Below are positions 41,001 through 44,609 of a stretch of 64,000 nt of DNA, one piece after another. Numbering within the stretch: position 1 is the first letter of the stretch; every line of letters starts with the position of its first letter. A model generated the notes under the pieces. It made no database searches and was not told the origin of the DNA. It saw only the letters and a list, made by a program, of their open reading frames with translations. Origin of the DNA: Jeongeupia sp. HS-3 (GTDB lineage: Bacteria; Pseudomonadota; Gammaproteobacteria; Burkholderiales; Chitinibacteraceae); contig NZ_AP024094.1 in NCBI RefSeq assembly GCF_015140455.1, positions 992,001-1,056,000 of the forward strand. The letters are read 5' to 3'. A program made the translations under genes and the position numbers.

Positions 41001-41229
41001 CCTGATGACGTCGATCGCCTTCATCGCCGGGGTGCTGCCGCTGGTGATCAGCACCGGCGCCGGCGCAGCGAGCCGGCACGCGATCGGCACAGGCGTGATG
41101 GGCGGAATGATCGCCGCGACGGTGCTGGCCGTGTTCCTCGTGCCGGTGTTCTTCGTGGTGACCCGCAAGCTGTTCCCGGACAAGGCGCACAAGGCTTTGA
41201 GCGAGGCAGCCAGTGACGATCACCGCTAA
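38092..41229 (+). CDS. RND multidrug efflux permease (HAE1/AcrB family), pump 2
   Basis: A 1,045-residue RND antiporter. It shows FFIDRPVFAWVIALIIILAG, the proton-relay Asp pair in LAIGILVDDAIVVVENVERI, and LRFRPILMTSIAFIAGVLPL near the end. It differs clearly from pump 1 (for example PGLTISATYPGASAKLVEETV versus [21 protein letters not shown]), so the two are not a recent duplication. The long open frame on the opposite strand is a by-product of GC-rich codon use. It overlaps the start region of the channel gene. Confidence 0.96.
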   Translation: MSRFFIDRPVFAWVIALIIILAGLLALRGLPVSQYPEVAPPGLTISATYPGASAKLVEETVTALIEQEMNGLENLLYFDSASDSNGSATITLTFASGTDIDIASVEAQNRIKRVEARLPAEVRQQGVQVAKSRRNYLLFMTLYSPDGALDSVALGSYASSAVLDSIRRVKGVGEATLFGTEYAMRVWLDPQKLAGYKMTPAEALAAVRAQNVQVATGELGQLPSIPGQEVNATVVTQGRFVTPEQFGNVVLRDGGKGGQVRLKDVARVELGAQDYSVVARLNGKQTAAIGVKLSPDGNAVETAALVREKMNELSRYFPQGVAWDIPYDTSKFVDISIKEVLKTLAEAIVLVFLVMYLFLGNLRATLIPTIVVPIALIGSLVGLYLLGYSINVLTLFAMVLAIGILVDDAIVVVENVERIMSEEGLAPREATQKAMGQIVGAIVAITLVLSAVFVPMAFFTGSVGAIYRQFSVTLVLTMGFSALLALTLTPALCATMLKPIHKGELHAQTGFFGWFNRKFHNTTVGYVGWVTRILRRSGLALLFFALILAATGWLMSRLPTSFLPDEDQGYFVSMVQLPAGATRERTLVVMNEVEQYYMKQPEVEKVIGVVGFSFFGRGQNAALAFITLKDWKNRPKKEEGVSTLVQNANMTLFRIKQAFVFALNVPPIPELASVGGFDFRLQDRAGLGREKLLEARNTLLGMAGQNPALAGVRPEGQEPGPQVYLDVDRVRASQLGIPLADLNDTLSIALGSAYANDFVRDGRILRVLIQADAASRSSPDGILNLQLRNRQGGLVPLSEIATASWVIGAPKLDRYNGLPSYKISGGPAPGKSSGDAMSAMEEMAAKLPQGIGFEWSGTSYEERLSGSQAPFLFGLSVLVVFFCLAALYESWSIPFAVLLVVPLGLFGAVMAMTMRGLPNDVYFKVGLIAIIGLSSKNAILIIEFAKDLQRHGMDLTEATLEACRLRFRPILMTSIAFIAGVLPLVISTGAGAASRHAIGTGVMGGMIAATVLAVFLVPVFFVVTRKLFPDKAHKALSEAASDDHR

Positions 41230-41239
41230 GGAGCTGACG

Positions 41240-42625
41240 ATGAAAACAACGATACTTTCGTTCGCGATTGCCTCCTTGCTCGGCGGCTGCGCGATGGAGC
41301 CGGATTACCAGCGCCCGGTGCTGGAGATGCCGAAACAGGTCGGCACCGCCAGCCAGCCGGCTACCTTGCCGGCGATCAAGTGGCAAGACTACTTCACCGA
41401 TCCGGCGCTGACGCCGCTGATCCGCGATGCGCTGGCGAACAACCGCGATTTGCGCGTTGCGATGGCGCGGGTCGAGGAAGCCCGGGCGCTGTACGGCATT
41501 CAGCGCGCCGATACGTTGCCGTCGTTCAGCGCGGTCGGTGCCGAGGCGGTCAGCCGTGTGCCGGCAACGGTCAACGGCGGGCGCGAGGCGACGATTTCGC
41601 GCCGCTACGACGCCAACCTCGGGCTGCTGTCGTACGAGCTCGACTTCTGGGGGCGAGTGCGGCGCTTGAACGAGGCGGCGCAGGCCAACTATCTGGCGAG
41701 CGAGGCGGCGCAAAAGAGCTTTCGCGCCGGGCTGATCGCCGACGTTGTCAGTGGTTATTACGGCGCGCAGGCACTGTCCGAGCAACTGGCGTTCTCGCGC
41801 AAGACCGAAGTCGCCCGCAGCGAGACCTTGCGGCTGGTGCAGCGCCGGCTCGACGTCGGCCTCGCCGATCGGCTGGAGTTGCTTGAGGCGCAGACGGCGT
41901 TCGAGTCGGCGCAGGCGATCTCGGCACAACTGGCCAAGCAAAAGGACAACGCGCGCCATGCGCTCGGCGTGCTGATCGGCCGGGTGGTTGCGGACGACGA
42001 AATCATTTCCGGCGATGCCACCCTGCTGGAAAAACGGCCCCTGCCGTTGGCGATCCCGGCCGGTGTGTCGTCGGAAGTGCTGCTGAGCCGTCCGGATGTC
42101 GAGCAGGCCGAACAGCAACTGGTGGCGGCCAATGCGAATATAGGCGCGGCGCGGGCGGCGTTCTTTCCCAAGGTGACGCTGGTCGGCTCGGCCGGGACGG
42201 CGAGTGCCGAGCTGGGCGATCTGTTCGGCAGCGGCAGCGGAGCGTGGAGCTTCCTGCCGACGGTGTCGATACCGATCTTCGACGGCGGCCGTACGCGTTC
42301 GGGGCTGGATCTGGCCGAGGCGCGCAAGGTCGGGGCGGTGGCATCGTACGAGAAAACCATCCAGGTGGCCTTCAGGGAAGTCGCCGATGTGCTCTCCGAT
42401 CAGCAGTGGCTCGAAGCGCAGCTGGATGCGCAGCAGCGATTGATCCGCAGCCAGACCGCTAGGATGAATCTGGCCGAGCGTCGCTACAAGGACGGCCTGA
42501 CCAACTATCTGGCATTCCTGATTGCCCAGCGCGATTACTTCGCGTCGCAACAGACGTTGATCGAGGCGCGGCGTGCGCGGCTGACGGTGGCGGCGCAGGC
42601 GTACAAGGCGCTCGGCGGCGAGTAG
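41240..42625 (+). CDS. RND efflux outer-membrane lipoprotein (NodT/OprM family), pump 2
   Basis: A 461-residue TolC-like channel lipoprotein. ATG 41240 has AAGGAG seven bases upstream and gives the lipobox SLLGGCAMEPDY. OEP repeats include SYELDFWGRVRRLNEAAQANYL, PIFDGGRTRSGLDLAEARK and RRYKDGLTNYLAFLIAQRDYF. An in-frame ATG at 41213 overlaps the permease end and is less likely. It closes the tetR-adaptor-permease-channel operon; the terminator expected after it has been invaded by two mobile elements. Confidence 0.93.
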   Translation: MKTTILSFAIASLLGGCAMEPDYQRPVLEMPKQVGTASQPATLPAIKWQDYFTDPALTPLIRDALANNRDLRVAMARVEEARALYGIQRADTLPSFSAVGAEAVSRVPATVNGGREATISRRYDANLGLLSYELDFWGRVRRLNEAAQANYLASEAAQKSFRAGLIADVVSGYYGAQALSEQLAFSRKTEVARSETLRLVQRRLDVGLADRLELLEAQTAFESAQAISAQLAKQKDNARHALGVLIGRVVADDEIISGDATLLEKRPLPLAIPAGVSSEVLLSRPDVEQAEQQLVAANANIGAARAAFFPKVTLVGSAGTASAELGDLFGSGSGAWSFLPTVSIPIFDGGRTRSGLDLAEARKVGAVASYEKTIQVAFREVADVLSDQQWLEAQLDAQQRLIRSQTARMNLAERRYKDGLTNYLAFLIAQRDYFASQQTLIEARRARLTVAAQAYKALGGE

Positions 42626-42651
42626 GGGTTGTGGGCGACGCATAAAAAAAA

Positions 42652-42800
42652 GGCTATGTATCCGCTAACTGTTGTGGATCACTGCGCTACGCCTGCTAGC
42701 CCAAGCAACAAGCCGTATTCCAGCGTGCCGTTGGCGTCACTGGTATCGCAAGGGTTCACGCCACTTACGTGAGGTTGCAACAGTTAACGTCGACAGAGCC
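42652..42800 (+). mobile_element. MITE related to the adjacent IS1595-type element
   Basis: A 149-bp non-coding element with imperfect terminal inverted repeats: GGCTATGTATCCGCTAACTG on the left and, reverse-complemented, GGCTCTGTCGACGTTAACTG on the right, both continuing TTG. The left end matches the left end of the IS next door in 20 of the first 24 bases. It is flanked by AAAAAAAA on the left (42644-42651) and TAAAAAAA on the right, a near-identical 8-bp pair as IS1595 elements make. It is probably mobilised by an IS1595-type transposase. Confidence 0.72.
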
Positions 42801-42808
42801 TAAAAAAA

Positions 42809-43826
42809 GGCTATGTATTCATTAGCTGTTGTACCCCCAATGCCTCGGCCAAACACAGCTGCGGCGTGATGCCCGAGCGGTAACGCTCCAGCATCCGCCG
42901 CCAGCCCAAATAATTCACCAAGTATCGCGTCGCCACACCGTGAAACCGCCGCATCCACTGCTTCAGCCTGCTGTCGTAGGCGTTAACGTTCTGGATATGA
43001 AACACCCCATCGACCCGCTGGCCGCGGCGCACATTGATCGCGCGGTGACGCAATCCGCTCGCCTTGGCGAAGGCGGCATACACCCCGGCACTGTCGGTGC
43101 ACAGCATCGCGTCGGCATCGACCAACGGGCCGAGCACGGCGGCGATGTGTGCCGTATCCAATCGTGCCAGCTGGAAGTCGGCCGTCTGGCCACTGCGATC
43201 CCGCACCACCAACACCGGAATCTGCTCGGCAATTGATGCCGCGCTTTTGCGCTACACCGCCACGTTGACGGCTGGGGCGATTGAGGTGGCGCTGGCCCTT
43301 GAACGATTCGAGGAAGAAGGTTTCGTCGGCTTCGACAATGCCGCCAAGATGCTCGGCTCGATGGTCAGCGACGGTGGCCAGGAAGCGCTGGCGCCAGCGC
43401 CAGGCGATGTTCTTGCCGATAGCGCATTGTGCTGCCGCCGCCTGCACTGACAGGCCATCGATTAGCGTTTGCGCGAAGCGCGCCCATTGTTCGCGCTGGC
43501 GCAGCCGCGCCAGCGGCGTGCCGGTGAGTGCATTGCAGGTCTTGCCACAGTGGCGGCAGCGAGAACGGGGCAAGCCATCGCTACTGCCCCAAGGGCGCAG
43601 TTCGGGCTGGTGGCAATGCGGACAATCGGACTGCGGATGCAGTTGTTGGATCAGGTTGGCCATGGCCTGGCGCGGGTCGCCGTGCTCGAGCTGCTGCTGC
43701 AACTGCTGGCGTTGGTACGGGTTTAGCCGAGCAAGCTTGGCTATCGATGGTACGCATGGCGTCGCCCTCAAACACGCTACAGTGCTTGGGCTACGAGGGG
43801 TCGCAATAGTTTATGAATACAGAGCC
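42809..43826 (-). mobile_element. IS1595-family insertion sequence
   Basis: A 1,018-bp element with terminal inverted repeats GGCTATGTATTCATTAGCTG (left) and, reverse-complemented, GGCTCTGTATTCATAAACTA (right). The flanks TAAAAAAA (42801-42808) and TAAAAAAC (43827-43834) form a near-perfect 8-bp target duplication. It carries one transposase gene, interrupted by a frameshift. It sits at the 5' A-tract of the bidirectional terminator at 43828-43858. Confidence 0.85.
42811..43771 (-). pseudogene. Frameshifted IS1595-family transposase
   Basis: The N-terminal part (from about 43771, TTG) has the zinc ribbon CPHCHQPELRPWGSS...CRHCGKTCNAL and the first catalytic Asp in GGIVEADETFFLES. After KRGIN near 43230 the frame is lost; the rest continues one base on, as EQIPVLVVRDRSGQ, with the second Asp in CTDSAGVYAAF and an Asn-Lys pair in NAYDSRLKQW, the DDNK type of this family. 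Rejoining needs a +1 shift, not the usual -1 programmed shift, so a single extra base has probably killed the gene. The stop (TAG) lies in the left terminal repeat. Confidence 0.8.
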
Positions 43827-43827
43827 T

Positions 43828-43858
43828 AAAAAACGCCAAGGCAAGCCTTGGCGTTTTT
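43828..43858. terminator. Bidirectional terminator between pump 2 and phaB
   Basis: An A-run, ACGCCAAGGC-AA-GCCTTGGCGT, then a T-run: a 10-bp perfect stem. It serves phaB (minus strand, stop at 43875) and originally also the pump 2 operon. The mobile elements lie directly beside its A-tract. Confidence 0.9.
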
Positions 43859-43874: not shown

Positions 43875-44609
43875 TCAACACATGTGCTGGCCGCCATTGA
43901 TGGCGAGATTGGTGCCGGTCATGAAACCGGAAACATCCGAGGCCAGGTAGCTGATCAGTCCGGCGATTTCTTCCGGTTTGCCAAGGCGGTTGACCGGAAT
44001 GTGCGCAATGATCTTGTTGCGAACATCCTCGGGTACGGCCATGACCATGTCGGTGGCGATGTAGCCCGGCGAAATGGTGTTGACCGTCACGCCCTTGCGC
44101 GCCACTTCCTGTGCCAGGGCCATGGTGAAGCCGTGCATGCCGGCTTTGGCCGCCGAGTAATTGGTCTGGCCGAACTGGCCCTTCTGACCGTTGATCGACG
44201 AGATGTTGATCACGCGACCCCAGCCGCGCTCGGCCATGCTGTCCACGAATTGCTTGCAGACGTTGAAAACCGAATCGAGGTTGGTCTTGATCACCGAATC
44301 CCAGCTGATCTTGTCGAGCTTTTTGAACGTTGCATCACGGGTGATGCCGGCGTTGTTGATCAGAACGTCAACCGGGCCGAGTTCCGCGGTCACTTTCGCG
44401 GCCATGGCGACGCAGGCATCATAATCGCTGACATCACACTGGTAGGCGTGAACGGTGTAACCCACTTCCTTCATGTCGGCGAGCCAGTGTTGCTCTTTGC
44501 CCGGGCGTGAATAGGTCGTGACGACAGTGAAGCCATCGTCCGCTAGCCGTTTGCAGATGGCCGTGCCGATGCCGCCCATGCCGCCTGTGATCAGTGCGAT
44601 CTTTGTCAT
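43875..44609 (-). CDS. phaB: Acetoacetyl-CoA reductase
   Basis: A 244-residue short-chain dehydrogenase that reduces acetoacetyl-CoA to (R)-3-hydroxybutyryl-CoA with NADPH for polyhydroxybutyrate synthesis. The cofactor motif is ALITGGMGGIGTAICKRL, the catalytic Tyr-Lys set NYSAAKAGMHGF after INISSINGQKGQ, and the PhaB-type end FMTGTNLAINGGQHMC. FabG is the alternative but the TGGMGGIG motif and C-terminus favour PhaB. No phaA or phaC is in the window. Confidence 0.93.
   Translation of the reverse strand: MTKIALITGGMGGIGTAICKRLADDGFTVVTTYSRPGKEQHWLADMKEVGYTVHAYQCDVSDYDACVAMAAKVTAELGPVDVLINNAGITRDATFKKLDKISWDSVIKTNLDSVFNVCKQFVDSMAERGWGRVINISSINGQKGQFGQTNYSAAKAGMHGFTMALAQEVARKGVTVNTISPGYIATDMVMAVPEDVRNKIIAHIPVNRLGKPEEIAGLISYLASDVSGFMTGTNLAINGGQHMC

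Follow-up and report, generated by a model that had tools for sequence, protein, structure and literature searches.

An IS1595 subgroup that appears to insert preferentially at intrinsic terminators, with two insertions stacked in one terminator A-tract of Jeongeupia sp. HS-3

A MITE and an insertion sequence at one terminator

The window analysed here, a 64,000-nt stretch of the 3.4 Mb genome of Jeongeupia sp. HS-3, holds two mobile elements one behind the other at a single transcription terminator, which raises the question of whether such sites are a preferred target. In our reading it is highly probable that a subgroup of the IS1595 family inserts preferentially at intrinsic terminators, and that the window shows two such insertions in one terminator A-tract.

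Upstream of the stack lies an open reading frame for a NodT-type outer-membrane efflux protein (41213..42625, plus strand). Beyond it, read on the plus strand, are a T and 8 A forming the left duplicate of the terminator A-tract (42643–42651; T at 42643, A8 at 42644–42651), a 149-bp MITE (42652–42800, ends GGCTATGTATCC... and ...GTCGACAGAGCC), the 8-bp target duplication common to both elements (42801–42808; TAAAAAAA, T plus 7 A), a 1,018-bp IS1595-family IS on the minus strand (42809–43826), and a T and 6 A forming the right duplicate of the tract (43827–43833). The last of these abuts a bidirectional intrinsic terminator, CGCCAAGG-CAAG-CCTTGGCG followed by TTTTT (43834–43858), with the stem-loop at 43834–43853, the T5 at 43854–43858 and a folding energy of -19.3 kcal/mol. 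The downstream open reading frame, acetoacetyl-CoA reductase-like as judged from its sequence (43875..44609, minus strand), is transcribed towards the hairpin, so that it and the efflux gene converge there, and on the minus strand the T and 6 A at 43827–43833 constitute the T-tract of its terminator. A simple terminator scan called no terminator at this hairpin, although the hairpin itself is perfect, apparently because the stem was extended through A/T pairs, leaving no T-run.

Read directly, the MITE at 42652–42800 runs from GGCTATGT to ACAGAGCC. Taken as 8-bp duplications, its flanks AAAAAAAA/TAAAAAAA match at 7/8 positions, as do the flanks TAAAAAAA/TAAAAAAC of the IS, and both pairs would fit a TAAAAAAA target if each outer A-run (8 A and 6 A) had since changed by one base. 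The preliminary description had given these lengths in this order, with near-perfect 8-bp A-rich flanks and both elements inserted in the A-tract of one bidirectional terminator; the lengths and order proved exact on rereading, and the placement was confirmed from the sequence. Further copies of both elements, flanked by clean duplications, exist elsewhere, and a chance arrangement is thereby excluded.

The transposase gene of the window IS is frameshifted by one extra A near 43231. Its 5' part (42983..43771, minus strand) encodes a putative zinc ribbon, the helix-turn-helix and the start of the DDE-type domain, and its 3' part (42811..43215, minus strand) continues in a different frame, where it matches PF12762 and NF033547. 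The only other full copy in the genome, at C1:880158, differs by that single base and carries an intact 319-aa transposase (P0001), which matches the IS1595-family profile NF033547 at 187.9 bits (cut-off 75) and PF12762 at 49.7 bits (cut-off 27), while the N-terminal zinc ribbon profile NF050000 reached 26.9 bits against a cut-off of 28. In an alignment of 26 rows the cysteines C50, C53, C72 and C75 are conserved, as are the catalytic residues D149, D226 and N263, which we take to be the DDN variant of the IS1595 family. The best-scoring named genome for the transposase is a Rhodocyclaceae MAG.

Insertion sites within the source genome and element-free sites in relatives

The source genome contains four copies of the MITE (in the window and at C1:2044582, C1:275451 and C1:1336785), the window copy being identical to that at C1:2044582 and 88% identical to the other two. 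No copy was found beyond this genome in a search of 150 genomes. The MITE has no coding capacity and is flanked by 8-bp duplications (AATAAAAA, AAAAAAAA and TTAAAATA). The C1:880158 IS has the duplication TTTTTTAT on both sides and terminal inverted repeats GGCTATGT/ACAGAGCC. The MITE resembles the IS at both ends, with 83% agreement across the left 24 bp and 74% across the right 35 bp, so that it is likely to be a passenger of the IS; related ends and equal duplication length suggest that it would be moved in trans by an IS1595-type transposase. The relatedness of the ends had been noted from the window alone, and the ends of the 149-bp unit are conserved in four copies.

Five of the six MITE and IS insertions in this genome fall within A/T tracts of intrinsic terminators. 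Counted as distinct sites these are four of five, with p from 0.01 to 0.0003 depending on the assumed background rate. The MITE at C1:2044582 (AATAAAAA-MITE-AATAAAAAAGCCGCCTCAGGGCGGCTTTTT) and that at C1:1336785 (AAAAAAAA-MITE-AAAAAAAACGCCCTCCGACCGGGAGGGCG) each have a duplication with an adjoining hairpin, and at C1:880158 the hairpin is on the left, followed by the T-tract (GCGCCACTTTCGAGTGGCGCTTTTTTAT-IS-TTTTTTAT). The MITE at C1:275451, with TTAAAATA on both sides, is the sole insertion of the genome without an adjoining hairpin.

Comparison with an empty site, as had been proposed, was possible in two genomes of the same genus, G001 and G002, both of which carry the gene pair and a terminator and no elements. 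In G002, which has a counterpart of the window terminator, the efflux stop codon is followed by AAAAAACGCCAGGAGAGTATCCTGGCGTTTTC; G001 has a different hairpin, AACGCCAAGGTTTCACCTTGGCGTT. As the efflux gene leads straight into the terminator in both genomes, the element-free state is likely the older one and the insertions would have come later.

Insertion sites of related IS1595 elements

Transposases related to that of the IS were sampled across the order and in one family where they are abundant; when the sampling was widened to the whole class, few matches resulted. Element ends were set by inverted repeats (at least 13/22) and duplications (at least 7/8), a procedure blind to hairpins. About thirty genomes yielded 110 insertions with clear ends and 8-bp duplications, a count that leaves out 58 loci without detectable ends, and merging of orthologous sites reduced these to 105 distinct sites.

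The duplications are A/T-rich at 94 sites and, in terminator orientation, 77–91% T at positions 1–5. With hairpins scored by a home-made rule whose threshold was chosen after viewing the first sites, 63 of the 94 have a strong hairpin no more than 4 nt from the duplication on the side where it would form a terminator, and 10 have one on the wrong side. The distance between hairpin and duplication peaks at 0 nt (57/94, against 3/94 on the wrong side), and correct-side counts drop to 0–3 at 7 to 20 nt, while those on the wrong side are flat at 0–8. Typical sites are L014 (GGGGGCTCAGGCCCCC-TTTTTTTT-IS-TTTTTTTT) and L029 (CCGCCCTCGCAGGGCGG-TTTTTTTT-IS-TTTTTTTT). With respect to the hairpin, the transposase showed no orientation bias at these sites (39 vs 28, p 0.22), and for the strand orientation of the tract (hairpin then T vs hairpin then A) the sample was small, with 4 wrong-side cases vs 1.6 expected. 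Around 40% of sites have no such hairpin, some being in A/T-poor sequence or in genes, and terminator insertion is therefore a preference, not a rule.

The preliminary description had named target preference for terminator A/T tracts as one explanation of the stack and suggested collecting further copies and examining their flanks. The flanks are enriched in terminators across the 105 distinct sites when set against several controls, most copies lie in such tracts rather than away from them, and the preference is thereby strongly supported.

Target choice and alternative explanations

The statistics of the 105 sites show that the duplicated 8 bp usually are the T-tract immediately beside the hairpin, on which the staggered cut would fall. 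The feature recognised is most likely the A-tract with its adjoining palindrome in DNA, possibly as exposed during transcription termination. In a more specific version, the terminating transcription complex itself would guide the transposase: the 8 bp between the two cuts would correspond to the RNA-DNA hybrid that the U-tract forms directly behind the hairpin, and transposition would be coupled to transcription termination; we regard this version as unlikely.

It is quite unlikely that the transposase reads homopolymer A/T tracts only, terminators being hit since many long tracts of GC-rich genomes are found in them. The T-rich duplications would agree with this, and some 30% of control runs of 7–8 bases do adjoin hairpins. 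When flanking 8-mers of equal A/T content and run length served as the comparison, however, 60 sites were observed at terminators vs 17.6 expected (n=92). The excess remains at matched run length in intergenic DNA, where gene calls are rough: for runs of up to 5, 21 were observed vs 3.7 expected (n=46; binomial p 8e-12), and for runs of at least 6, 30 of 36 vs 14.5. Shuffling of the hairpin-side flanks gave 6.8 expected against the 63 observed, with a maximum of 19 in 20,000 simulations. Poor tracts are also used as targets where they stand beside strong hairpins (TTTTTCAT, AAAGCAAA, TTTCATTT).

Survivorship alone, with insertion anywhere in A/T-rich DNA and terminator copies seen because they are harmless, is very unlikely. 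Terminators are situated in intergenic DNA, and the IS1595 family is known to make A/T-rich duplications (ISApl4, PMC12561309), but survival alone would predict insertions scattered across intergenic DNA, whereas the insertions line up with the edge of the hairpin to a precision of a few nt. Against run-matched intergenic sequence, defined by the same rough gene calls, 51 sites were at terminators vs 18.1 expected (n=82; binomial p 7e-15). Counts by site category are unreliable, as the quick gene caller puts spurious ORFs over intergenic DNA. Among elements of other IS families with detectable ends in the same genomes, only 1 of 19 was at a terminator (Fisher p 6e-6), a set including four IS4-family copies that sit inside hairpins in another way and hence score negative; with these removed the figure is 1 of 15 (p 1e-4). 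As further controls, IS256-type transposases were too rare in the surveyed genomes, and other IS1595 subgroups offered only about a dozen copies with detectable ends, too few to judge the family as a whole. Taken together, the run-matched, intergenic, shuffled and other-IS controls speak against an explanation of the pattern by A/T tracts alone or by survival alone.

The IS4-family element of G888 is 1,419 bp long with ends TAATGCCG and a 441-aa transposase. All four copies examined (L269, L280, L288 and L292) are inside terminator hairpins, and the 11–12-bp duplication corresponds to the stem-loop core, for example gcgCCCCGCGGGGC-IS-CCCCGCGGGGCgctttttt.

Distribution of the preference among relatives

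In a tree of 121 transposases, of which only the broad shape was used since some rows have long branches and are probably wrong-strand ORFs, terminator sites are found across most of the sublineages that make up a large clade. The small clade to which the window's IS belongs also has them, at L022, L014 and L241. The preference extends to Candidatus Dactylopiibacterium (L014) and to Aeromonas plasmids (L241 and L298), the L298 site being GGCAGTGCATTGCACTGCC-TTTTTTAT-IS and recurring in L299. Among the nearest relatives (60–67% identity), L014 is at a strong hairpin, and four of the five end-defined sites are away from strong hairpins (L012, L023, L238 and L239), L238 and L239 being ISAchd1-like copies that are not at terminators. 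The case for the window's own IS lineage is accordingly based mainly on the source genome itself and a few others. No MITEs of other related elements were found in their flanks.

Another IS1595 subgroup is represented in G084 by an 832-bp element with ends GGTAATACCT, two of whose four copies (L260, L261, L262 and L263) abut terminators, so that the terminator preference may extend beyond the subgroup analysed here. In Uliginosibacterium gangwonense (L016, 1300–2200) there is a 597-bp shortened IS1595 derivative, flanked by palindromes resembling ParB binding sites (TGTTCCACGTGGAACA, TGTTCCACGTGAAACA).

Stacking of insertions at one hairpin

Because the MITE and the IS each occur separately elsewhere in the source genome, the stack in the window is, on sequence comparison, the outcome of two independent insertions. 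A second stack was found in G908 (C1:3272345–3274261), where two IS1595 copies in the same orientation (L091 and L148) share one hairpin, with TTTTTTAT present three times around them. Their transposases have unequal tree branches (0 and 0.057), so this stack is not a fresh duplication.

Such stacks are to be expected from the mode of insertion, as an 8-bp duplication of the tract re-creates a T-tract beside the hairpin and the target can be hit again; they were seen twice, in the window and in G908. The earlier suggestion that the MITE had been left in place and its site re-targeted thus follows from the tract duplication. If the hairpin-side tract is the preferred target, the element adjoining the hairpin should be the younger, and in the window the MITE would have inserted first and the IS second. 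An origin of the window stack through recombination, or as a single compound unit, is extremely unlikely, for although the MITE and IS have related ends and tracts in common, their sequences differ and each stands alone elsewhere with its own duplication; in G908 the unequal branches speak against a fresh duplication.

Comparison with known systems

The window's IS resembles the IS1595 family in its length of about 1 kb, in its putative zinc ribbon, its helix-turn-helix and DDE-type domain, and in its GGCTNTGT-type ends and 8-bp A/T-rich duplications. The nearest named element is ISAchd1, of which a plasmid ISAchd1-like copy is 66.5% identical. Group IIC introns also insert just downstream of intrinsic terminator hairpins, as the window elements do; they are retrohoming RNA elements, with no DDE-type transposase and no target duplication. 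For ISApl4, of the IS1016 group, the only preference described is one for A/T-rich 8-bp repeats (PMC12561309). In the open literature, which excludes the family's founding papers, no report of terminator-directed insertion by the IS1595 family was found, and prior notice in those papers is possible.

IS1272 and TnSha1, of the IS1182 family, insert at terminator hairpins and have hit one terminator repeatedly; IS1272 cuts within the hairpin, part of which is lost, and no target duplication results (PMC4923244). The window elements, in contrast, leave the hairpin intact and duplicate the adjoining T-tract, and an IS1182-like mode, with insertion inside the hairpin and no duplication, is ruled out by the intact hairpin and the 8-bp duplication. 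Reports on IS elements in REP palindromes describe palindrome-directed insertion outside genes (PMC1525189, PMC8450116); as presented there, those elements target one repeat family, while the window-type IS targets terminators in general.

Implications for host and element

As the duplicated 8 bp usually constitute the T-tract next to the hairpin, one copy of that tract stays in place beside the stem, and a gene reading through the spared hairpin should still terminate. The element would in turn be shielded from transcription of that gene. For the convergent gene the terminator now lies farther off by the length of the insertions, about 1.2 kb in the window. The proposal that terminator insertion serves as a survival strategy fits this geometry.

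The subgroup would represent a simple, single-gene DDE-type transposon that prefers intrinsic terminators, where the terminator should survive and the target be renewed. Terminator targeting of this kind would let a selfish element spread cleanly while doing the host little harm, and it offers a case in which target choice directed by structure or by transcription can be tested. A terminator-targeting transposon might also serve to place DNA at gene ends.
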